Source: an uncultured Lentisphaerota bacterium (GTDB taxonomy: Bacteria; Verrucomicrobiota; Kiritimatiellia; RFP12; UBA1067). From it: a DNA stretch of 46,451 nucleotides. This document shows, piece after piece, positions 26,057 to 39,909 of the stretch. Positions within the stretch are counted from its first letter, which is position 1. Every line of letters starts with the position of its first letter. The notes below the pieces were generated by a model. The model had not been told where the DNA came from. It saw nothing but the letters and a program-made list of their open reading frames with translations, and did no database searches. Location: positions 1-46,451 of the forward strand of contig ONRL01000051.1 of the NCBI GenBank assembly GCA_900320225.1, written 5' to 3'. The position numbers and the translations under genes were made by a program.

Positions 26057-29000
26057 TCAAATGAGGGCCAGAAGCGCGAGGATGATTCCGCAGAGGCCTT
26101 CGCCGGCCACAAGTCCCGCGGAGAACAACGTGCCGACATCCTCGGCCTTTGACGCCTCGTGGCCTCCGTGCCGCGACACGGCGCCGCGCAGAAGCCCGCC
26201 CGCAAACATCGTCACGCTCAATCCGACCGGAAGGTACATGCCAATTGCAACGGGCATCACCGGCACGCGCAGGAGCGCGAGGACCGCCGCGAGGGCCGCG
26301 CCGACGCCGATGAGGTGCCAGGGCAGGCCGCCGCCCATGATGCCCTCCACGATCACCTTCATCAGCGTCGCCTGAGGTGCGGAGATCGCATCGCTCCCGA
26401 ATCCCCAGACTTTGTGCAGGAGCGCGAGCACGCCGCCGATGGCCAGCGCGGACGCAATGACGCCGACAAGCTCGCCGATCTGCTGCTTCCACGGCGTCGC
26501 GCCCAGCAGGTGGCCCGTCTTGAGGTCCTGCGCGGTGTCGCCCGCAATCGCCGCGACGATGCAGACGACGCTCCCGATCGCGATTGCCGCGACCATTCCC
26601 GCCGCGCCGACGGAGCCGGTCTCCTTCAGCGCCAGGGTGGAGACGACAAGCGTGGCGATGGTCATGCCGGATATCGGGTTGTTCGAACTGCCGACGAGCC
26701 CGACCATCCGCGCGGACACTGCCGCGAAAAAGAAACCGAAGAGGACGATCAGAATCGCGCCGAAAACCGACACGGGCACGGCCGGCACGAGCCAGATGAA
26801 TGCGATCACGCAGACGAGGCATCCGATCACGGCCTTCAGCGGGAGGTCCCGTCTGCCGTCACGCTCCCCGCCGCCGTGTTCATCTGGCGCGCCCTTGGGC
26901 GGCTTGAACGCATGGAGGAACGTCGGCAAGGAACGGAGGAGCGAGATGAAACCGCCGACGGCGATTGCCCCTGCGCCGACATAGCGCACGTAGCCGCTCC
27001 AGACGGCCTTCACGTTTCCGGCGTTCCACAGGGCGGCGGCTTCGGGAACCGTTGCAATGACAATGGGGATCAGCACCATCCACCCCAGCATCGCGCCGCT
27101 GAACAGGAAGGCGGATATCTTCGGCCCTACGATATATCCGACGCCCAGAAGCGCGGGTGAAATGTCAAACCCCACCGCGCCGCGGACGAGCTTGACCGGC
27201 CAGAGAAATGACTCGGGAATCCATTTGAGCCAACCCGTCACGAACTTGACGACCGCCGCCACGCCAAGTCCGGCGAACACGTTCTTCGCGTGTTTCGCGC
27301 CGGCCTCGCCCGCGCGCAGCACGTCCGCGCAGGCAAGTCCCTCCGGATAGGTCAACGTCTTGTCCGCGACGATCAGCGGACGCCTCAGCGGCACCATCAG
27401 CAGGACGCCGAGAATGCCGCCTGCAAGGGCGATCAGCGTGACGGACAGGAGCTCCGGCACGGCGAACTCCGCAGGCCGTTCCCCCGCCCACAGGTACAGC
27501 GCCGGCAGTGTGAATATCGCACCGGCCGCCAACGACTCGCCGGCGCTGCCGATGGTCTGCACCATGTTGTTCTCGAGGATGGAATCGCGGCGCAGGACAA
27601 AGCGCAGCACGCCCATCGAGATCACCGCCGCCGGAACGGAAGCTGAAACCGTCAGCCCGACGCGGAGCCCCAGATAGGCGTTCGCGGCTCCGAACACGAT
27701 CGCCAGCAACACGCCCAGGACGAGGGCCGTCAGGGTCAGTTCCTTTTCGGACTGGGGTTGGATGGCCGTGGCAAACGCGCGCGCGGCGCCATTGATGGCG
27801 ATCGTGCCACCCACGGCGCCGGTGCGGTTGAACTTCACCTCCGCACGGCGGCCGTCCGGCAGGACGATCTCCACGCCGTCATGGGCCTCCGTTGCAATCC
27901 TCTGGACCTGTGGTCGTGTGGCCGTGCTGTCCGTAGCCGTGAGGACGTGCAGGAAGCGGTCGTTCGCGCGTGGAGCGCCGGGCGCCACTTCCAGGCGCCA
28001 CGCCCCGAAGTAGGGGCCGCGGCCCGTGCGCTTCGCGCCGCGCGCAGCCGAGGCGAGGAACGCGGTGTCGGGTTCCCAGTTCTTGCCGTTCGACCAGAAC
28101 TCCTTGCCGGGGCCGCCGATCTTCTCGAGCGTCGCATCCTCGGGCAGGATCGTCTCGCAGAAGAGGCGGCCCTTGCCGCTGTCGGCGCGCAGCACGCGCC
28201 CCTCGACCGCAGGTTCGTCCTTGACGTGGAGGAGCCAGGCCTTGGCGTCGGATGGAGTGGCGGCGCCCACGCGGTCGTACACCACGAAGACGTCGGGCAG
28301 CAGGTGGACGAACTGCCGCACGGCCTCCGTGCACTTCTTACCGTAGAGGGCGGTGGCGTCAGAGGCAATGTAGGTGTAGGCGTCGTTTGTCTCGAAGGCG
28401 AGCACCTTCGCGGAGCCGTCGTACATGCCGCCATCGTTGTTCTTGCCCTCGGGGCCGGGGTAGACGGGTCCCCAGTAGCGCGGCAGCGGTTCGCCGGGAC
28501 GGCGGATGAGGATGCAGTTGTGCGCGATCGTCTGGGCGTAGTAGTACTTCAGGTTCCAGTCCGTCTCCACGCCGCGCGTGCCTGAGTCGAGGGCGAGGAA
28601 GTCGTGCTTGTAGATGGTGAAGTTGTTCTCGTCGTGGTGCTTGTGCATCGTGAGCTTCGCGCCCGCGGTGAACGTGCAGTAGGTGGAGTCGGGCTTCCAG
28701 CCGGAGCGCATGATGATCTGCCCCAGGTTCTCGAAGTGGCGGGCGTGGAGCGGCTGGTTCTCCAGCTCCTCGGCGGAATACGGCTTCACCTCCTCAACTT
28801 GTTGCGGCGCGCGCGGGGCGCGCGCCCTACCACGGGAGGGTCGCGCTCCTGCGCGACCGAAAAGGAAGGGGTACATGGGCCAGTCGTGGGCGAAGGACTG
28901 GTTGGGCGCGCGGTCGCGCAGGGACGCGGCGAGGCGCGCGGCGGCGGGGTTCGCGTCGCGGAAGAAGTGGATGTACTGCGACATGTGCTCGTAGAGGCGG

Positions 29001-30016
29001 CCAACCGACAGGGTGTTGTGCGTGTGCTGGTCGTCGCCGAAACCGCAGTAGAGCGGCATGTTCGGATGGGCCGCGTTCGGGATCCACGTCCAGTAGATCC
29101 AGTTGGGGAAGAGGGCGAGCCCGGGGTAGGATGCGGCGAGGTTCTCGCCGGTGGCGGAGAGCCAGGTGTGGAAGAAGTTGAAGTGCGCCCACGGGTACGC
29201 GCCCATGCAGTAGCCGGGCACGGCGGAGGAGAGGGCGCCGTCGTCGCCCGCGCCGTCGTTGCGGAACTTCACCATCTCGAGGCAGAGGTCGTGTCCGCGG
29301 CGCAGCTGGTCGCGCGCGAGGTCGTCGCAGAAGCCGTCGCCGTACGCGGCGAGGCCGGAATACCACAGGAGGCTCCGTACGCTGTAGAAGCCGCTCTGGA
29401 TGTTGCCCACGTTGCGGCGGATGATGAACGGCTTGCCCTTACCCGGCTGCACGTCCTCCACGTGCTGCACGAGCGGCACGATGATCGCCTTGCGCTCCTC
29501 GGGCGTGAGCGCCTCCCAGATCCAGTCGTAGGCGCTGAGCGCGAGGATGCGCGTGGTGGAGTACCAGTTGACGGCGCGTCCGTTGCGGTAGGCGGCGTGG
29601 TAGGCGGCGACGCTCGCGACGAGCATCTTGCGCGCCTTTTCAAGGTACTTCCGCTCGCCGGTGAACCGCCACGCGAGCGCGCACTCGGCCGCCTGGGGCC
29701 CCCACTCCTTCACGCTCGGGATCGGCGTGGCGGCGGTGGTCTTGTGCGTGCCTGAGGCGGTCTTCACCTCGCGGAACACCACGGGGTCGAAGCCGGAACA
29801 GACGGGATCCGCGGGGTAGCGGTCGCAGCGCTTGATGAGCGCGTCGCGCGCCGCGCGCGCGGGACCCTCCGCCCGCGCCTTCACGGCGGGCCATGTCTCC
29901 GCGTTGAAGAACATGCGCGGGTGGTCGCGGCGGATGCGGCCCTCCCAGTTCGGAGTTTCCGCCGCCGCGCCCAGAAGGGCGCCGACGGCACAACAGACGG
30001 TGAGGATTCTTTTCAT
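26057..30016 (-). CDS. Heparinase II/III-type lyase fused to OPT-family oligopeptide transporter
   Basis: The single frame encodes 1319 residues. Residues 1-20 are a signal peptide. About 21-755 is a heparinase II/III (DUF4962-type) protein: an alpha-helical toroid with WEGRIRRDHPRMFFNAETWP, then a beta-sandwich with MHKHHDENNFTIYKHDFLAL, the His/Asp-rich region typical of the family. It would cleave acidic polysaccharides in the periplasm. From about 757 the protein continues as an OPT transporter (EKELTLTALVLGVLLAIVFG, TYPEGLACADVLRAGEAGA), about 560 residues of membrane helices up to the stop. Both parts look complete, and the join (AIQPQ/SEKEL) falls where one family normally ends and the other begins. 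No start codon or ribosome site is visible at the join. A deletion that fused neighbouring genes is the simplest reading. A palindromic repeat also interrupts the lyase part (28797-28858). Confidence 0.85.
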   Translation of the reverse strand: MKRILTVCCAVGALLGAAAETPNWEGRIRRDHPRMFFNAETWPAVKARAEGPARAARDALIKRCDRYPADPVCSGFDPVVFREVKTASGTHKTTAATPIPSVKEWGPQAAECALAWRFTGERKYLEKARKMLVASVAAYHAAYRNGRAVNWYSTTRILALSAYDWIWEALTPEERKAIIVPLVQHVEDVQPGKGKPFIIRRNVGNIQSGFYSVRSLLWYSGLAAYGDGFCDDLARDQLRRGHDLCLEMVKFRNDGAGDDGALSSAVPGYCMGAYPWAHFNFFHTWLSATGENLAASYPGLALFPNWIYWTWIPNAAHPNMPLYCGFGDDQHTHNTLSVGRLYEHMSQYIHFFRDANPAAARLAASLRDRAPNQSFAHDWPMYPFLFGRAGARPSRGRARAPRAPQQVEEVKPYSAEELENQPLHARHFENLGQIIMRSGWKPDSTYCTFTAGAKLTMHKHHDENNFTIYKHDFLALDSGTRGVETDWNLKYYYAQTIAHNCILIRRPGEPLPRYWGPVYPGPEGKNNDGGMYDGSAKVLAFETNDAYTYIASDATALYGKKCTEAVRQFVHLLPDVFVVYDRVGAATPSDAKAWLLHVKDEPAVEGRVLRADSGKGRLFCETILPEDATLEKIGGPGKEFWSNGKNWEPDTAFLASAARGAKRTGRGPYFGAWRLEVAPGAPRANDRFLHVLTATDSTATRPQVQRIATEAHDGVEIVLPDGRRAEVKFNRTGAVGGTIAINGAARAFATAIQPQSEKELTLTALVLGVLLAIVFGAANAYLGLRVGLTVSASVPAAVISMGVLRFVLRRDSILENNMVQTIGSAGESLAAGAIFTLPALYLWAGERPAEFAVPELLSVTLIALAGGILGVLLMVPLRRPLIVADKTLTYPEGLACADVLRAGEAGAKHAKNVFAGLGVAAVVKFVTGWLKWIPESFLWPVKLVRGAVGFDISPALLGVGYIVGPKISAFLFSGAMLGWMVLIPIVIATVPEAAALWNAGNVKAVWSGYVRYVGAGAIAVGGFISLLRSLPTFLHAFKPPKGAPDEHGGGERDGRRDLPLKAVIGCLVCVIAFIWLVPAVPVSVFGAILIVLFGFFFAAVSARMVGLVGSSNNPISGMTIATLVVSTLALKETGSVGAAGMVAAIAIGSVVCIVAAIAGDTAQDLKTGHLLGATPWKQQIGELVGVIASALAIGGVLALLHKVWGFGSDAISAPQATLMKVIVEGIMGGGLPWHLIGVGAALAAVLALLRVPVMPVAIGMYLPVGLSVTMFAGGLLRGAVSRHGGHEASKAEDVGTLFSAGLVAGEGLCGIILALLALI
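28797..28858. repeat. Palindromic repeats inserted in frame within the heparinase coding region
   Basis: CAACTTGTTGCG (28797-28808), a GGCGCGCGGGGCGCGCGCC palindrome and GGTCGCGCTCCTGCGCGACC (28839-28858) are consecutive. The last is the exact reverse complement of 33414-33433 and nearly matches 8236-8255, both intergenic. They encode the low-complexity peptide AGARPSRGRARAPRAPQQ at about residues 387-405, out of character with the surrounding protein. Confidence 0.8.
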
Positions 30017-33355: not shown

Positions 33356-33433
33356 TGAGATTACGGTGCGGAACGGCGGTCGCAACAAGTTGCGCCCTCC
33401 CGTGGGAGGGCATGGTCGCGCAGGAGCGCGACC
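33356..33433. repeat. 19-bp repeat copy and palindromic modules upstream of the beta-strand-repeat gene
   Basis: TGAGATTACGGTGCGGAAC (33356-33374) is a solitary copy of the repeat that forms the arrays at 36076 and 37625. It is followed by a CGCAACAAGTTGCG palindrome, CCCTCCCGTGGGAGGG (about 33395-33410) and GGTCGCGCAGGAGCGCGACC (33414-33433), the reverse complement of the module inside the heparinase gene. Confidence 0.8.
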
Positions 33434-33460: not shown

Positions 33461-35191
33461 TTAGGCGTTGGGCCAGAGCTGGGCGGCGAGTTCGCGGAGC
33501 TTGTACTTTTGGATTTTCTGCGACGCGGTCATCGGGAAGATGTCCATGAAGTGGACGTACTTCGGGATCTTGAACCACGAGATCTTGTTGTGGCAGAAGT
33601 CCGCGACGTCCTCTTCCTTGATGTCCGCGCCGTCGGCGGGGATGATGAACGCGGCGGGCTGTTCGCCGTATTTCTTGGAAGGGCAGCCCACCACGGCCAC
33701 GTCTTTCACGCCGGGCATCGTGCCGAGGAAGTCCTCGACCTCCTTCGGGGAGATGTTCTCGCCGCCGCGGATGATGAGGTCCTTCAGGCGTCCGGTGATG
33801 TAGTAGTAGCCGTCCGCGTCCATGCGCCCGATGTCGCCGGAGTGAAGCCAGCCGCGCTCGTCGATGCACTGTGCGGTCTGCTCGGGCATTTTGTAGTAGC
33901 CCTTCATGCAGTTGAAGCCGCGGCAGCAGATCTCGCCGTCGGTGCCGATGGGTGCGAGGTCGCCGGTCTCGGGGTCGATGATCGCCACCTCCACGCCGGG
34001 GAGGGCTTGGCCGATCGTCTGGCACTTGCGCTCGATGGACGGCTCGAAGGAGCGCGTCATCGTCATCACGGGGCCGGACTCGGTGAGGCCGTAGGGGTTG
34101 CAGACCTCCTTCATGAACATGCGGTCCACGACCTGTTGCATGCGGTGCACGGGGCAGGCGGACCCGCTCATGATGCCGCTGCGGAGGGAGTGGAAGTCGA
34201 ACTTGTTGAAGAGCGGGTGGTCGAGCATCGCGATGTACATCGTGGGGACGCCGTAGACGGCCGTGCACTTCTCCTTCTCGATCGAGGCCATCACCTGGAG
34301 GGGGTCGAACTTCTCGAGGAACACCATCGAGGAGCCGTGGTTCACGCAGCTCATCACGCCGAGCACGCAGCCGAAGCAGTGGAACAGCGGCACGGGGATG
34401 CACACGCGGTCGCGGCAGGTGAGGTTCTGGCACGCGCCGATCCAGAAGCCGTCGTTCGCGATGTTGCGGTGGGTGAGCTGCACGCCCTTCGGGAAGCCCG
34501 TGGTGCCGCTCGTGTACTGCATGTTCACGACGTCGTTTACGTCGCACTCGGCCTGGCGCGCGAGGTAGTCCTCCCACGGCGTCTCCACCGCGAGGGACAG
34601 CACCTCGTTGAGCGAGTACATGCCGCGGTGCTTCTCGCCGCCGAGGAACATCACGCGCTTGAGGTGCGGGTACTTCGCGCTCTTCAGCACGCCGCGCGGC
34701 TGTTCGCGCAGCTCGGGGACGAGCGTGTAGATCACGTCCACGTAGGAGCAGTCGCGGTAGCCGGAGATGATGAAGAGGTTTTCCGTGTCGGACTGCGAGA
34801 GCGCGAAGTCCATCTCGTGCTCTTTGTAGTTCGTATTGAGCGGCAGGAGGATCGCGCCGATCTTGGCGGCCGCGAACATGAGCACCACCCAGTGGGGCAC
34901 GTTCGTGGCCCAGAGGGCGATCTTCTCGCCGCGCTTCACGCCAAGCGCCATGAGGCCGCGCGCGAGGCGGTCCACCTCCTCGCCGAACTCGTACCAGGTG
35001 AGGCGGAAGTCGCGGTCGGCGTAGACGACGGCGTCGTTCTCGCCGCAGCGCGCGATCGTCTGGTCGAGGAGCTGCCCGAGCGTGTACTCGCGCGTGACGG
35101 GCAGGTTGTGCCAGGGCACGCCGCGGCTGACGCTCTGGGCGAACGGCGCCTGCGTGGGCGCCGAACCGAATGGGTCCGTGAGCTTGAACAT
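33461..35191 (-). CDS. AMP-forming acyl-CoA ligase (long/medium-chain fatty-acyl-CoA synthetase type)
   Basis: The 576-residue length and motifs fit the adenylate-forming superfamily, which activates a carboxylic acid with ATP and joins it to CoA. The phosphate-binding loop YTSGTTGFPKGVQLTHRN lies at about residues 225-242. The A5-A8 region includes YGLTESGP and GEICCRGFNCMKGYY...SGDIGRMDADGYYYITGRLK, and RGGENISPKEVE. The C-terminal catalytic lysine is in FPMTASQKIQKYKLRE. The substrate cannot be read from sequence; the overall form resembles FadD-like enzymes. The start follows GGGAG and lies 13 bases after the stop of the XRE-cupin gene, so the two form an operon. A regulator paired with the ligase suggests control by the acid or acyl-CoA (inference). 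Confidence 0.92.
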   Translation of the reverse strand: MFKLTDPFGSAPTQAPFAQSVSRGVPWHNLPVTREYTLGQLLDQTIARCGENDAVVYADRDFRLTWYEFGEEVDRLARGLMALGVKRGEKIALWATNVPHWVVLMFAAAKIGAILLPLNTNYKEHEMDFALSQSDTENLFIISGYRDCSYVDVIYTLVPELREQPRGVLKSAKYPHLKRVMFLGGEKHRGMYSLNEVLSLAVETPWEDYLARQAECDVNDVVNMQYTSGTTGFPKGVQLTHRNIANDGFWIGACQNLTCRDRVCIPVPLFHCFGCVLGVMSCVNHGSSMVFLEKFDPLQVMASIEKEKCTAVYGVPTMYIAMLDHPLFNKFDFHSLRSGIMSGSACPVHRMQQVVDRMFMKEVCNPYGLTESGPVMTMTRSFEPSIERKCQTIGQALPGVEVAIIDPETGDLAPIGTDGEICCRGFNCMKGYYKMPEQTAQCIDERGWLHSGDIGRMDADGYYYITGRLKDLIIRGGENISPKEVEDFLGTMPGVKDVAVVGCPSKKYGEQPAAFIIPADGADIKEEDVADFCHNKISWFKIPKYVHFMDIFPMTASQKIQKYKLRELAAQLWPNA

Positions 35192-35204
35192 GTGGGACTC
35201 CCTG

Positions 35205-35768
35205 TTAGAACGGCAGGAACACGATGCCGTAGATCGAGGCGGGCTTGCCGTCGAGCGCGCGCAGCGAGTGCGTCACGACGCTGTTGTAGTACGCCGTGTC
35301 GCCCGCGTGCAGCACCGTGGTCTCGGGTCCGTAGGTGAGCTCAATCGTGCCGTCGAGGACGATGATGAGCTCCTCGCCCTCGTGGCTGGACGGCGACGTG
35401 GGCGCGTTCGCGGTGAACTCGATGCGGAAGGGGTCCATGTGGCGGTCGGGCTTGCCGATCGCGAGCGAGTAGTAGGCGTAGCCTGCCGGGTTTTCACCTT
35501 CGTGGGCCACCTTGACGGAGGAGAGCTGGTCGGCGCGGGTGATGATGGGGTCGGGCTTGAACTGGTCGTCCATGAACGTGCCGAGGCGCTGTCCGAGGGC
35601 GCGGGAGAGCTTCGTCAGGACGCCCAGCGCGGGCAGTACTTCGCCGTCCTCGATCGAGGCGATCACCGCCGCCCCCACGCCGCTCTTCTCGGCCAGATCG
35701 GCGAGCGTCATCTTCAGGTTTTCGCGGTACGTCTTGATCCGCTTCCCCACTTTGTTTTCATTAGCCAT
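35205..35768 (-). CDS. XRE-family regulator with C-terminal cupin domain
   Basis: The 187-residue protein has an N-terminal helix-turn-helix (residues about 8-63: GKRIKTYRENLKMTLADLAE, then SIEDGEVLPALGVLTKLSRA) and a C-terminal cupin_2 barrel (about 100-185: HEGEELIIVLDGTIELTYG, LHAGDTAYYNSVVTHSLRAL). This architecture is a known small-molecule-responsive repressor/activator type. It is the first gene of an operon with the acyl-CoA ligase and likely regulates it and itself. I use the ATG at 35768, preceded by GGAAAAAAGAAG. A start at 35801 would lie on the -10 box of the promoter found at 35802-35830 and can be excluded. Confidence 0.92.
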   Translation of the reverse strand: MANENKVGKRIKTYRENLKMTLADLAEKSGVGAAVIASIEDGEVLPALGVLTKLSRALGQRLGTFMDDQFKPDPIITRADQLSSVKVAHEGENPAGYAYYSLAIGKPDRHMDPFRIEFTANAPTSPSSHEGEELIIVLDGTIELTYGPETTVLHAGDTAYYNSVVTHSLRALDGKPASIYGIVFLPF

Positions 35769-35801
35769 CTTCTTTTTTCCAATTAGCTGTAAAACGCGCA
35801 T

Positions 35802-35830
35802 ATTTTACACTAATTCCCCCTTGCGGGCAA
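35802..35830 (-). promoter_or_regulatory. Promoter of the XRE-cupin / acyl-CoA ligase operon
   Basis: On the minus strand TTGCCC (35830-35825) and TAAAAT (35807-35802) are spaced by 17 bases. The predicted transcript start near 35795 leaves a leader of about 27 bases. From here to 35957 I see no further feature. Confidence 0.65.
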
Positions 35831-35957
35831 GTAGAAACAAATCTGGAGGCTCACAAGACTGCGATTTCTTTAATCTTCTCCTGCACGTGCAAGCAAAAAC
35901 ATAACAGTCCCTTTTGAACGAGAGTCGTGCGCGCAAGTGCTTCACTCCAAGATCGGG

Positions 35958-36005
35958 CGTTAGCTTGACAGTTAACTTTGCCGTTAATTTAACCCTTAGC
36001 TTGAC
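35958..36005. repeat. Four tandem 12-bp units
   Basis: On the minus strand the units are GTCAAGCTAAGG, GTTAAATTAACG, GCAAAGTTAACT and GTCAAGCTAACG. Three contain the palindrome-like TTAA core. They lie about 150 bases upstream of the XRE-cupin promoter and could be regulator sites or a simple tandem repeat. No gene covers them convincingly. Confidence 0.6.
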
Positions 36006-36075
36006 CGCTAGGGCACGCAGAGTCTGATAAGCCGCTCTAATATGGAGGTCGTGACAAACGCGATTTTCCGCCATC

Positions 36076-36203
36076 GTTCCGCAGCGTAGTCGCATCATTA
36101 CCATCTATTCCCCCGTTCCGCACCGTAGTCGCACGCCCTTGTTGACAATGTTCCGCACCGTGGTCGCACGCCCCTGTTGCCAATGTTCCGTACCATGGTC
36201 GCA
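36076..36203 (-). repeat. Left array of a 19-bp repeat (four copies)
   Basis: Read on the minus strand, the repeat is TGCGACTACGGTGCGGAAC, with copies at 36203-36185, 36168-36150, 36133-36115 and 36094-36076. Start-to-start spacing is 35, 35 and 39 bases. Spacers are 16, 16 and 20 bases; the first two are related (ATTGGCAACAGGGGCG and ATTGTCAACAAGGGCG). The array ends about 160 bases before the unknown gene at 36366. A second array in the opposite orientation follows that gene. Confidence 0.8.
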
Positions 36204-36365
36204 TAGCCGGTCGCCTTTCGGGAAAGCCCGCGGACGTTCCGTCCTTGTATGCATTCCGCTACATTTTTCATACACTTCCTTTGAATTCATTTGACAGTTT
36301 CCCCTCTGTTCTCCCGGCGGCGGACATGATAAGATTATGGCGTCGGGACAAAAAAGGTCCAGCAC

Positions 36366-37442
36366 ATGCGAAAAGTCGTAGAAGAATATCTTGAAAGCAG
36401 GGGTTGCCGCGTCATGCGCCCCCATGCCGAGCCCGTGCCGCTCACGCTCGAGAGCTTGGTTGACGGGTTCCTCGTCCATGTGTTGCGCCTTGACCCGGAG
36501 AGCTATCGGCGGGCGTTCTGGTACGAGGCGTACAAGAACGGCCACACTATCGGACACGTCCCGCGCACGTTCGGGGCTTTCTTCAGGCGCAACGCGCGCA
36601 CCTTCGAGGAGAAGGTGTCCCTGCTACTAACCCTGGCCGCGCTCTTCGGCGTCTACACGGTGGCGACGCTCCTCTACAGGCGCCTCTCGCTTGTCCTTCG
36701 CCGACTTCGGCGCCCGACATACTACGCGCGCGAGCGCGAACGCCGCCGGAAGCTCGCCGCCGAGCGGCGTGAGATCCGCAGGCACCGCACGCTGAACCCG
36801 CGCCCGACTTTCGACGCGATCCGCGCGGCGCTTCGGGTCGCGCGCGGTTCGCCCGAGGCGGCGATCCGGCTCGGTTCGCTCCTGGAGGACCTCGAGTGCT
36901 TCGTGGACAACACCCTCCGGTTTGACGTAAGCGGCCGGATCGTGGGGCGCAGGGGCGGCATCAAGCGCCTCTTTCAGCGCGAAGCGCCCGACCTGTTCGA
37001 GAAATACTCCACGATCATGCGTTACAAGGCGATGGCGAAGCGCTTCCGCCAAGCGTGTGGTACCGGCGAACCCGTGCCGCCCGAGATGCTCCTGCCCGTG
37101 CCGGAACCGGTCGAACCCAATCCCGATTCGGCGCCCGCTTCGCCGCCGGCCGACTCAAATCCCGCTCCGGCACCCGTTGCCGCCGAAACGGCCGCGTCTC
37201 CCACGCCCGTACCGGCCGATGTCGCAGGCGGGTTGCAGGCAGGATTGGTTCGTGCGCGTGAAGTCGCGCGGGAGATACTGGGGGAGTGCGAGGGGACGCT
37301 CATCTCGCTCGAAGCCGCGCTCGCGTTGCGGCTGGATCCCGACTGCATACCCGCGAACGGGGAAGAATACGTGCGCAAGCCCGGCCGTTCGCGCATTCCG
37401 AAGAATGTAATCAGCTGGCTGCTTCGCCGCCGGGTCGCCTGA
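36366..37442 (+). CDS. Unrecognised 358-residue protein between two inverted repeat arrays
   Basis: I do not recognise this protein. Residues about 1-80 are soluble. A hydrophobic segment (VSLLLTLAALFGVYTVATLL, about 85-104) looks like a membrane helix. It is followed by a strongly basic, probably coiled-coil stretch (RERERRRKLAAERREIRRHR). Residues about 145-235 form a compact basic domain with LGSLLEDLECFVDNTLRFD and IVGRRGGIKRLFQREAP, then KYSTIMRYKAMAKRFRQ. A Pro/Ala-rich linker (about 240-285) leads to a C-terminal domain ending IPKNVISWLLRRRVA. No nuclease, transposase or ATPase motif is visible. Arrays of one 19-bp repeat flank the gene in opposite orientation (36076-36203 and 37625-37724), so a functional or mobile link between gene and repeats is plausible but unproven. 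The upstream TTGACA at 36291 lacks a matching -10. Confidence 0.75.
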   Translation: MRKVVEEYLESRGCRVMRPHAEPVPLTLESLVDGFLVHVLRLDPESYRRAFWYEAYKNGHTIGHVPRTFGAFFRRNARTFEEKVSLLLTLAALFGVYTVATLLYRRLSLVLRRLRRPTYYARERERRRKLAAERREIRRHRTLNPRPTFDAIRAALRVARGSPEAAIRLGSLLEDLECFVDNTLRFDVSGRIVGRRGGIKRLFQREAPDLFEKYSTIMRYKAMAKRFRQACGTGEPVPPEMLLPVPEPVEPNPDSAPASPPADSNPAPAPVAAETAASPTPVPADVAGGLQAGLVRAREVAREILGECEGTLISLEAALALRLDPDCIPANGEEYVRKPGRSRIPKNVISWLLRRRVA

Positions 37443-37624
37443 CGGCACCATTCTACATTGACTTGCCATACCTGTACGCATTATTGACGCAAGGCCTTCG
37501 CTACCGTAGGCGTGCAGGCGCGTGCCCCCTCAGTTCCGAACGGGAAGGGGCCCGCCGTCCCCGAATGACATTTGCTGCTCGAGGGTTACGCTGTTGTGGT
37601 CGGGCGCTGCAGTTGTCTTTGTGG

Positions 37625-37724
37625 CGAGATTACGGTGTGGAACAGGGGGCAGGGTGATTGCCGGCGTGCGATTATGGTGCGGAATAGGAAGTGGTTTGTA
37701 AGAAATGCGATTACGGTGCGGAAC
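37625..37724 (+). repeat. Right array of the 19-bp repeat (three copies)
   Basis: Copies read on the plus strand: GCGAGATTACGGTGTGGAAC (ending 37643), TGCGATTATGGTGCGGAAT (37667-37685) and TGCGATTACGGTGCGGAAC (37706-37724). Spacers are 23 and 20 bases and unrelated to each other. The orientation is opposite to the left array, so the pair forms an inverted flank around the gene at 36366. The 180 bases between that gene's stop and this array hold nothing I can identify. Confidence 0.8.
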
Positions 37725-37759
37725 GGGCGGTGGGAGAATATAATATACCAACAGAACGG

Positions 37760-37788
37760 TTGCCGAAAACGATAGGTTCTGATATAAT
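37760..37788 (+). promoter_or_regulatory. Promoter of the DUF1080 lipoprotein
   Basis: TTGCCG (37760-37765) and a perfect TATAAT (37783-37788) are 17 bases apart. Transcription from about 37795 would give a very short leader before the 7-codon ORF at 37808. A second TATAAT occurs at 37739 without a clear -35. Confidence 0.75.
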
Positions 37789-37807
37789 CGCGGGCCAAGG
37801 AGAAGTT

Positions 37808-37831
37808 ATGAACGTGAAGGAGAAGTTATGA
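37808..37831 (+). CDS. Seven-codon leader ORF from a duplicated ribosome site/start
   Basis: GGAGAAGTTATGAACGTGAA occurs twice in direct tandem (37799-37818 and 37819-37838). The first copy's ATG opens MNVKEKL and stops at a TGA that overlaps the ATG of the lipoprotein gene. Ribosomes starting on the first copy would terminate exactly on the second start, so the two are probably translationally coupled. Confidence 0.55.
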   Translation: MNVKEKL

Positions 37832-38697
37832 ACGTGAAGAAATGGTTGTCCGTGGGAGTGGTCGCGTTGTGTGGCATGGCGGGAGTTCTCTCCGGTTGCA
37901 CGTGTCTCTCCGGTTGCACGTGTCTCTCCGGCTGCGCGTGTCTCTCCGGTTGCACGTGCCTCGAGCGCGTGGCGGCGGCGCGGGAACTGTTCAACGGACG
38001 CGACCTCACCAACTGGTACACGTTCATCCGCGGACGCGGCGTGAACTGCGACCCGAAGGGCGTGTTCACCGTCACGAACGGCGTCATCCACGTGAGCGGC
38101 GAGGAGTTCGGCTGCCTCACGACGTGCGAGGAGTTCTCGGACTACCGTCTTGTGGTCGAGTACCGCTGGACGGGCGCGCCGAACCTGGGCTCGAAGAAGG
38201 ACAAGGCACCCGACAGCGGCATCCTGTTCCACTCGACTGGGCCGGACGGCGGTTTCGGGAACACGTGGATGCTGTCGCACGAATACAACCTCATCGTGGG
38301 GGCTTCCGGCGACCTGTGGACCGTGGGGAAGAAGGACCGTCCGGACATCTTCGTGGAGGGCGAGGCCGGCGAGGAACGCCTGGGCGGAAAGTACGCCATC
38401 CACAAGAAGGGGGGGCGAACCGTCCGGCTGGTCGGCAACGACCGCCTCTGTCGGTCCGACATCGCGCGCGATTGGACGGACACCTACACGGTGCGTCCGG
38501 CGGCGAACGAGAAACCAATCGGCGAATGGAACACGGCGGAGATCGTCTGTTCCGGCGATACGGCCACCTTCTACTTCAACGGCGCGTGCGTGAACCGCCT
38601 CACGCGCCTCTCCCCGGCGCGGGGCAAGATCCAGCTGCAGAGCGAGGGGTGCCCCATCGAGTTCCGCCGCGTCGCCCTCAGTCCGTTGTCCCGGTAA
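37828..38697 (+). CDS. DUF1080 (3-keto-disaccharide hydrolase-type) lipoprotein with four tandem lipoboxes
   Basis: The 289-residue protein has a lipoprotein signal peptide in which LSGC(T/A)C is repeated four times (residues about 21-44). Each copy is an acceptable lipobox (Leu-Ser-Gly-Cys). The mature part is a DUF1080 / 3-keto-disaccharide hydrolase jelly-roll domain: ELFNGRDLTNWYTF near the start, SDYRLVVEYRW, DSGILFHSTGPDG, and IGEWNTAEIVCSGDTATFYF with GKIQLQSEGCPIEFRRVAL at the end. Family members act on or bind sugars outside the cytoplasm and are abundant in PVC bacteria and Bacteroidota. It is likely outer-membrane or periplasmic, probably monocistronic, with a perfect -10 box upstream and a translationally coupled leader ORF. 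Confidence 0.9.
   Translation: MNVKKWLSVGVVALCGMAGVLSGCTCLSGCTCLSGCACLSGCTCLERVAAARELFNGRDLTNWYTFIRGRGVNCDPKGVFTVTNGVIHVSGEEFGCLTTCEEFSDYRLVVEYRWTGAPNLGSKKDKAPDSGILFHSTGPDGGFGNTWMLSHEYNLIVGASGDLWTVGKKDRPDIFVEGEAGEERLGGKYAIHKKGGRTVRLVGNDRLCRSDIARDWTDTYTVRPAANEKPIGEWNTAEIVCSGDTATFYFNGACVNRLTRLSPARGKIQLQSEGCPIEFRRVALSPLSR
37888..37959 (+). repeat. Four tandem 18-bp units encoding lipobox copies
   Basis: The unit CTCTCCGGTTGCACGTGT is repeated four times with two single-base changes in the third unit (GGCTGCGCG) and one in the last (TGC). Each unit is six codons, so gains or losses of a unit stay in frame. Confidence 0.9.
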
Positions 38698-38760
38698 ACC
38701 GCCAAGATGGCGGCTCCCCATATCCGCATTCTCCATTTTCCATTCTCCATTCTCCATTCG
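38698..38760. repeat. CCGCCAAGATGGCGG palindrome and ATTCTCC-type heptamer run
   Basis: ACCGCCAAGATGGCGGCT (38698-38715) is a third copy of the palindrome at 8381 and 10124 and begins at the lipoprotein stop codon. It is followed by TCCGCATTCTCCATTTTCC and further CATTCTC words up to 38759, a short heptamer microsatellite immediately upstream of the gmk -10 box. Confidence 0.7.
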
Positions 38761-38767
38761 CCTGTGG

Positions 38768-38773
38768 TATACT
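38768..38773 (+). promoter_or_regulatory. -10 box immediately upstream of gmk
   Basis: TATACT ends nine bases before the chosen gmk start at 38783. No strong -35 is present, although the CATTCTCC words occupy that position. Transcription would begin around 38780, giving an almost leaderless gmk mRNA. Confidence 0.5.
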
Positions 38774-38782
38774 ATGTGCGCC

Positions 38783-39385
38783 ATGCAAACAAAGCCACTT
38801 TTCATCGTGATGAGCGCGCCTTCCGGTTGCGGGAAGTCCACGCTCATCGACATGCTTCTGCAGGAATACCCCGACCTGCAGTATTCCATCTCCTGTACCA
38901 CGCGTGCGCCGCGCGGCGAAGAGGAAGACGGCATCGACTACCATTTCCTGACGGTCGAGCGGTTCCGCGAGCTGCTGGCCGAAGATGCGTTCCTGGAATC
39001 CGCGGAGGTGCACGGCAACTACTACGGCACGCTCAAGCAGCCGATCATCGACGTGCTGAACGAGGGCAACTCGATGATCCTCGACATCGACGTGGTCGGC
39101 GCCGCGAAGGTGCGCCATTACGTGTTCCACCACCTGCCGGCGACGGATCCGCTGCGCGTGGGCTACATGGACGTGTTCCTCAACCCGCCGAGCCTCGACG
39201 CGCTGCGCGAGCGTCTCGAGGGACGCGGTACGGACTCGCCGGAGTCCATTGAGCGCCGCCTCGCGAACGCGGAAGGCGAGATGGCCCGCGCGCCCGAGTA
39301 CATGTACCAGGTCACGAACGACGAGCTCGGGCTCGCCTACAAGCGGCTCTGCGACCTCATCGACGCGCGGAGCGGGAGGATGTGA
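38783..39385 (+). CDS. gmk: Guanylate kinase
   Basis: The 200-residue protein is the usual length for Gmk, the cytosolic enzyme that phosphorylates GMP to GDP with ATP. The P-loop SAPSGCGKSTL is at residues 11-21. It is followed by the GMP-binding region SISCTTRAPRGEEEDGIDYH and the EVHGNYYGTL block, then DIDVVGAAKVR (Walker-B-like). The C-terminus carries RLANAEGEMARAPEY and FHHLPATDPL-type lid elements. I chose ATG 38783 because the alternative at 38774 directly abuts the -10 box. The stop overlaps the start of coaC. There is no ribosome site, consistent with leaderless initiation. Confidence 0.95.
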   Translation: MQTKPLFIVMSAPSGCGKSTLIDMLLQEYPDLQYSISCTTRAPRGEEEDGIDYHFLTVERFRELLAEDAFLESAEVHGNYYGTLKQPIIDVLNEGNSMILDIDVVGAAKVRHYVFHHLPATDPLRVGYMDVFLNPPSLDALRERLEGRGTDSPESIERRLANAEGEMARAPEYMYQVTNDELGLAYKRLCDLIDARSGRM

Positions 39386-39909
39386 TGAAGGTCGTGCTGG
39401 GCGTGACGGGGTCGATTGCGGCCTACAAGGCGTGCGAACTCGTGCGCCTGCTCGTGAAGCGGGGCGACGACGTGCACGTGGTGATGACGGAGCACGCGCG
39501 CGCGTTCGTGACGCCGCTCACGTTTCGCACGCTCTCGCGCAACGAGGTGGAATGCGACCTCTTCGAGGATCCGCGCGACTGGAAGCCCGGACATGTGTCG
39601 CTCGCGGCGTCCGCCGACCTCGTGGTCGTGGCGCCGGCGACGGCGAACATCCTCGCGAAGATGGCACACGGCATCGCGGACGACTTGCTTTCGTCCACGC
39701 TGCTCGCGACGAAGGCGCCGGTTGTGGTGGCGCCGGCGATGAACGACGGCATGTGGGAGAATCCTGCCACGCAGGCGAACGTCGCGGCGCTCGCTGCGCG
39801 CGGCGTGCGCATCGTGTCGCCGGGGGTGGGCGATCTCGCCTGCGGTACGTCGGGCGCGGGCCGCATGGCCGAACCGTCTGAAATCCTTTCAGCCTGCTGC
39901 ATTTCATGA
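39385..39909 (+). CDS. coaC: Phosphopantothenoylcysteine decarboxylase (CoaC half only)
   Basis: The 174-residue flavoprotein decarboxylates 4'-phosphopantothenoylcysteine in coenzyme A synthesis. Family motifs are GVTGSIAAYKACELVRLL at the N-terminus, catalytic His70 in KPGHVSLAASADLVVVAPAT, the AMNDGMWENPATQ block and the substrate-clamp motif DLACGTSGAGRMAE. In most bacteria CoaC is fused to the synthetase CoaB (about 400 residues together). Here the protein stops right after the CoaC domain, so CoaB must be encoded elsewhere or supplied by another form. Start and stop overlap its neighbours (ATGA at both ends), so it is translated as part of a gmk-coaC-ccs operon. Confidence 0.93.
   Translation: MKVVLGVTGSIAAYKACELVRLLVKRGDDVHVVMTEHARAFVTPLTFRTLSRNEVECDLFEDPRDWKPGHVSLAASADLVVVAPATANILAKMAHGIADDLLSSTLLATKAPVVVAPAMNDGMWENPATQANVAALAARGVRIVSPGVGDLACGTSGAGRMAEPSEILSACCIS

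Follow-up and report, generated by a model that had tools for sequence, protein, structure and literature searches.

A repeat-flanked gene of Kiritimatiellae and a possible new mobile-element family

What kind of locus places a gene of no recognised family between two arrays of a short repeat that point away from each other? The question arises in the window, the whole stretch of 46,451 nucleotides analysed here, which is the entire contig C219 of the draft genome G000 (5.2 Mb, 351 contigs). A sequence-only reading had reported four minus-strand repeats 5′ of the gene, three plus-strand repeats 3′ of it and one solitary copy, all of which were confirmed by pattern scans.

The gene and its repeat arrays

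The left array lies on the minus strand, with its outermost copy at 36076–36094, two further copies at 36115–36133 and 36150–36168 and the innermost copy at 36185–36203. The right array, on the plus strand, has copies at 37628–37643, 37667–37685 and 37706–37724, and the solitary repeat (33356–33374, plus strand) stands between an AMP-binding gene and a large ORF resembling a secreted-protein gene. Using the earlier 19-mer with up to three mismatches, we found seven sites in the window, against 0.00 expected from 100 dinucleotide shuffles. The right-hand copy at 37628–37643 was absent from these sites and was recovered, as the third of its array, with the 16-base core GAYTAYGGTGCGGAAY; the other array copies were seen with both patterns. 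With up to one mismatch, this core occurs 75 times in G000, and its reversed-pattern control does not occur at all. Between the arrays, the plus-strand ORF (36366–37442) encodes 358 amino acids, a putative repeat-binding, mobilising protein. An inward-facing relative of the repeat, GATTATGGCGTCGGGAC (36333–36349, plus strand), stands 33 bases 5′ of its ATG and may be an operator.

Several features were recorded in the surrounding DNA. Outside the left array, 35840–36075 carries short TTGAC/TTAAC repeats, and different short repeats stand outside the arrays of other copies (L071 and L087). At 37797–37962, 3′ of the element, a 3-keto-disaccharide-hydrolase-like gene has its ribosome-site-plus-start stretch duplicated (a 20-base unit, 2.2 copies), and its leader holds an 18-base unit in 4.2 copies. 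On the minus strand, 26057–30016 is a 1319-residue ORF in which a heparinase-like part is seemingly fused to a transporter-like membrane part.

The regular spacing of the repeats and the differences among the spacers would suit a CRISPR-like or other guide-RNA system with an unrecognised effector gene. We rejected this explanation as highly improbable: the arrays point away from each other, the spacers are purine-rich and uneven in length, and some subfamilies of the gene have a single site per side. None of the seven window products compared with PADLOC-DB was a cas-type protein, an Rfam search gave no match, and folding was no better than that of shuffled sequences for the left array (z = 1.53), the right array (0.45) or one unit (0.03). 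On the same Rfam, folding and spacer results, the earlier suggestion of a guide or antisense RNA locus found no support.

The protein is of no recognised family, as had been stated from its sequence: no match was obtained in Pfam, NCBIfam, PHROGs or PADLOC, and Pfam searched up to an E-value of 5 returned neither Y1_Tnp nor any other transposase family. The hydrophobic stretch noticed earlier was placed at residues 84–102 (mean Kyte-Doolittle value of 2.05), and such a segment lies N-terminal to a conserved core in many, not all, subfamilies. AlphaFold2 predicted this core (residues ~145–245) as a well-defined helical domain with a beta hairpin (mean pLDDT of 89.8 when predicted alone); outside the core, the prediction consists of one long helix and of parts of lower certainty. 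Invariant residues include D175, D181, G194, R195, G198, P208 and Y214. A PDB sequence search with the protein gave chance-level matches only (E-values of at least 0.29), fold searches with the model gave nothing at E ≤ 0.001, and the best VIA-align Z scores were 4.9 for the long helix and 3.3 for the core. Such an absence of fold matches does not exclude either a transposase relationship or a known fold. A resemblance of the core to DUF3102-like helix-turn-helix regions was considered and set aside, since Pfam gave no DUF3102-like match for it. The median dN/dS was 0.24 for 15 window-type pairs and 0.29 for 91 pairs from G141, a genome of another family of the class, with the lowest values (0.135–0.148) in the closest pairs. 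These ratios showed that purifying selection acts on the coding sequence of the family.

Distribution of the family and its sites

Six matches to the ORF lie within its own genome, and 27 of 59 related genomes have matches too, frequently several each. A species-genome collection yielded 69 loci, whose informative record titles name Kiritimatiellae, Kiritimatiellia, Verrucomicrobia or Lentisphaerae, most of them being of ruminant origin; the exception was a weak match, 36 residues long, to a record titled Bacteroidales. When 288 sampled genomes of the phylum were searched with the core alignment at 1e-6, all 16 matching genomes fell inside the class. The family had no match in phage, plasmid and viral collections, and neither it nor the repeat was found described in the accessible (non-subscription) literature. 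As judged by these searches, the ORF is a member of an unannotated multicopy family found almost only in Kiritimatiellae, a class whose members hosting it are rumen and gut bacteria. G141 contains 78 ORF matches in 3.2 Mb (110 contigs), which have no internal stops and of which a few are contig-end fragments. Several copies of the ORF also stop at contig ends in G000, G009, G013 and G008, which fits near-identical repeats breaking draft assemblies.

We examined 17 close copies, spread over six genomes of the genus (75–85% identity, or the window ORF itself), a set that leaves aside short ORF fragments in G009 and G013. Sixteen of them have repeats on every side covered by the contig. In these 16 copies, from all six genomes, the repeats face outward without exception (47/47 on the left and 51/51 on the right; 98 in total, 0 inward), and 60 of 75 spacings measure 33–42 bases, with a mode of 38. 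The orientation count leaves out L082 of G013, a close copy whose right flank of ~5 kb is devoid of repeats. At the ORF promoter, the inward repeat-like site recurs at the same place, with 0–3 mismatches, in all 11 copies whose left side is covered by the contig. The local layout described earlier for the window stands, but it is not unique, since further ORF copies in G000 have the same arrays.

Exact copies of the core number 12–49 in the six genomes with a close ORF (G000, 38; G005, 23; G006, 12; G009, 46; G011, 49; G013, 32), as against 0–3 in the ten others of the genus. Because the six genomes may form one clade, we read this co-occurrence of repeat and ORF as an association only, not as independence. 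Outside the genus, G049 has 20 exact repeats and a distant ORF in eight copies, and G040 has six exact repeats and no ORF match. In a scan of 67 homolog loci, convincing GATTACGG-type arrays were seen in close copies only, which rules out that every homolog has such an array of its own beside it. The sequence-only reading had proposed the co-occurrence check, and within the genus its outcome was positive, the repeats being abundant only where the close ORF is present. It had also named repeats spread genome-wide without relation to the gene, and homologs regularly without repeats, as findings that would speak against its proposals. Solitary copies do occur genome-wide, but abundance within the genus goes with the presence of that ORF. 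These arrays are indeed missing from distant homologs, of which several have other inverted pairs, and in others none was found. Binding of the repeats by the protein, which had been suggested from the start, is consistent with the co-occurrence in the genus and with site pairs that are specific to subfamilies.

Such site pairs were read in several groups. G049 has one minus-strand site 5′ of the gene at 7/7 loci and at least two plus-strand sites in or after its 3′ half, again at 7/7, with one additional plus-strand site upstream at locus L145. G032, G007 and G058 show the same outward layout with related motifs. In G141 and its relative G153 the motif is YCYTTGATATCGCRAG, unlike that of the window type; it was found on the left at 19 of 20 loci and on the right at 20 of 20, the right site being inside the coding sequence, 192 bases 5′ of the stop codon in 19/20. 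At this right site of G141 (counts leaving out L287), isoleucine is encoded by ATA in 19/19 cases (13/243 elsewhere), leucine by TTG in 19/19 (57/745 elsewhere) and arginine by CGA in 13/16 (18/823 elsewhere). As judged from this codon freezing, the in-gene site is constrained as DNA, not as protein. A further G141 group has TTTTCYGNAATCTC at 6 of 20 loci (5 on the left, 6 on the right, one of them inward); at the other 14 loci and in several other groups, no inverted pair was found.

A word scan by group compared the number of loci having outward inverted sites with that of a same-direction control. Outward sites were in excess in G049 (6 versus 1 of 7 loci), G032 (3 versus 1 of 4), G007 (4 versus 2 of 5), G058 (2 versus 1 of 3), five close copies (5 versus 1 of 5), G141 (15 versus 5 of 16) and G153 (3 versus 1 of 4), and weakly so in G038 (3 versus 2 of 5). 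There was no excess in G016 (2 versus 2 of 5), G001 (2 versus 2 of 3), the L133/L132 pair (1 versus 1 of 2), the RUG group (2 versus 4 of 7), the RGIG6330 group (1 versus 1 of 4) and the RGIG2266 group (1 versus 1 of 4). By these counts, the inverted-site layout is widespread across the family; its presence in every member would go beyond the data. In a G141 subgroup without inverted sites (L337, L339, L342, L343, L344 and L346), CCACCGRGACC stands in the same direction before and within the gene at 5/6 loci, which may be GC-rich chance.

Sites also occur apart from the gene. Many repeats of G000 lie outside gene copies, in intergenic DNA, some of them within larger repeats and others in long ORFs, where matches (for example GAT TAC GGT GCG GAA) may be due to chance. 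At L034, L040 and L103 (G000 contigs C252, C281 and C54), the repeat supplies a ATGAGATTAYGGTKCGGAA start, MRL(R/W)(C/F)G, at apparent signal peptides of secreted proteins. The G141 site, with up to one mismatch, has 111 occurrences (control, 0). We picked 20 regions of G141 away from gene copies (L308–L327) and read 23 sites, 18 of which have an ATG at offset 42, as at the left end of the full element. A module of ~60 bases, consisting of CTCGCGATATCAAGGA and then ATG, is scattered without the element gene. The reading frames 3′ of the solitary G141 sites have no common product. These sites may be leftover ends, or a regulon or small regulatory unit.

These positions bring in the main rival explanation, a dispersed family of self-regulating DNA-binding proteins. 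The left and inner sites would then serve as promoter operators, the right site would help to form a DNA loop as an auxiliary operator, and the solitary sites would make up a regulon; copies would spread via ordinary duplication or an unrelated recombinase. This explanation accounts for the G141 left site, which lies ~57 bases 5′ of the ATG and adjoins promoter-like sequence, as well as for the inner site of the window type, the ATG spacing at solitary sites and the intact, conserved state of the copies. We nevertheless consider it rather unlikely, as no common product follows the solitary sites and operators do not require a strict two-sided outward orientation. It also explains the promoter positions but not movement, the evidence for which follows.

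Empty site, unit boundaries and short derivatives

In the sister genome G006, the matches to window positions 34822–35838 (96.3%) and 37936–39500 (93.9%) are on one contig, with 81 bases between them. The interval that measures 2097 bases in the window (35839–37935, approximate limits) is thus 81 bases long at this place in G006, which has the same two neighbouring genes joined there with neither this gene copy nor its arrays in between. As judged by this alignment, ~2 kb was gained or lost between the two, a small part of the length difference being due to tandem repetition where the next gene starts. This is a single empty site, with limits that are approximate rather than base-exact, and no target-site duplication was readable either there or in G141 flanks. 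When G005:C445 was compared with G000:C346, both flanks matched at 90–91% and two repeats remained at G000:C346; this near-empty site for the G005 element may be a deletion remnant, loss being as likely as original absence.

The limits of the unit were read from copies at different places. In a subfamily present in G003, G005, G007 and G016, similarity among 10 aligned copies starts at the left site, ends at the stop codon and is absent outside. With the G003 element as query, matches within the genus repeatedly start at 963–968 and finish at 2018–2023. Short derivatives that keep both ends and lack the middle were found at L252, L260 and L271 (G008 and G014). Pairs of G141 copies have 85–92% DNA identity and unrelated flanks; their alignments start at most ~40 bases from the left site (in most pairs, at most 20) and finish at most ~20 bases from the stop codon. 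The pair L296/L298, for instance, is 92.4% identical over 1051 bases between unrelated flanks, and L295/L296 aligns only from 55–57 bases inside the left site. The long alignments of L286/L303 and L284/L300 represent the same places in G141 and G153, so that some insertions are old. Eight G141 elements were sought as empty sites in G153; the matching flanks lay on different contigs, and no clean empty site was seen. Copies of the window type cease to align near the stop codon, and the sequence from there to the right array varies among them.

As these alignments showed, copies that share one layout occupy unrelated places, and their homology ends where the unit ends. The proposal of a mobile unit with repeat ends has thus held up, on the empty site, the sharp-ended copies at unrelated places and the uniform outward orientation, and mobility of the family is well supported by these comparisons. 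For an operator family spread by duplication, near-identical copies with wholly unrelated flanks, and internally deleted derivatives together with an empty site, would all need a mover. That mover could be a known transposase encoded elsewhere, acting in trans on a non-autonomous cassette in which the ORF is a passenger or regulator. An ORF without a recognisable catalytic domain and a 1.05 kb unit with short-site ends are compatible with this explanation. We regard it as still less probable than the operator explanation, because the ORF is under purifying selection and found across one class, and because the sites vary with the ORF subfamily, as expected if the ORF protein itself reads them.

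A possible self-mobilising unit

We consider it probable, at roughly 0.58, that the locus belongs to a new family of mobile elements, each with a single gene, the product of which would bind the sites and is the probable mover of the unit. The outward site pair, the unit copied as a block and the subfamily-specific sites together suggest these two activities. The protein would bind the outward sites via its conserved helical core, pair the two ends and copy or move the unit, either unaided or assisted by a host enzyme. The constant inward site 33 bases 5′ of the ATG suggests that it may also repress its own gene. In the genus of the window, the end sites would have multiplied into arrays with a usual period of ~38 bases, and single sites would have been dispersed as REP-like leftovers.

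Several observations count against this mobile-element reading. The protein has no known catalytic domain or fold match, and its membrane-like segment is odd for a transposase. The copies have diverged but remain intact, which is not what recent bursts of insertion sequences typically look like. In subfamilies with the site in the ORF, the unit continues beyond the right site as far as the stop codon, which means that this site is not a physical end; the right inverted site lies ~45–192 bases inside the unit end, or in flanking arrays. The lack of a readable target-site duplication, the end of homology near the stop codon in the window type with variable DNA up to the right array, L082, which lacks a right repeat, the repeats of G040 without an ORF and the groups without an inverted pair also weigh on this side.

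Among known systems, the REPtron (tnpA-REP/RAYT) resembles the locus in that a gene is framed by a short repeat also scattered genome-wide. PMC8266576 describes REPs genome-wide with a tnpA-REP gene nearby; according to that paper, the gene is in most cases present once, shows no sign of being mobile and encodes an HUH enzyme that acts on palindromes with a GTAG tag. The repeat number here likewise follows gene presence within the genus, to which shared ancestry may contribute. Relative to that description, the present ORF differs in being multicopy and without a Y1/HUH match, and the arrays in showing no palindromic folding beyond that of shuffles; membership in the REPtrons fails for want of an HUH protein and a palindrome.

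The unit also resembles insertion sequences and their MITE-like derivatives, being a discrete single-gene unit of ~1.05 kb with inverted sites, many copies at several places, short derivatives and an empty site. It differs from them in that no known transposase domain was seen and no target-site duplication was readable, and in the position of the right site, which is inside the gene or in flanking arrays and not at the extreme end. Mu- and Tn7-type ends carry several spaced recombinase sites each, the two ends being oppositely oriented, and the present arrays share this arrangement; unlike Mu and Tn7, the unit has a single ORF and no DDE integrase or ATPase gene. By analogy, it would work most like a mobile REPtron, or like an insertion sequence with an unrecognised transposase.

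More tentatively, the protein may be a DNA recombinase of a new class, possibly associated with the membrane. It would read paired outward sites, one of which lies within its own gene in several subfamilies, and would have populated Kiritimatiellae genomes with tens of copies that diverge but still function and have group-specific sites; we think this rather doubtful as a whole. If the protein is instead a regulator, a multicopy gene with a DNA site frozen in its own coding sequence would still be unusual. If it moves its own gene, it would be a transposase unlike the families of Pfam, NCBIfam and PHROGs, and would come from gut bacteria of a class for which the literature searched describes little mobile DNA. 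Within a single genome, that with 78 matches in 3.2 Mb, the sites read seem to differ between subgroups, so that the co-divergence of a recombinase and its sites would be testable there.
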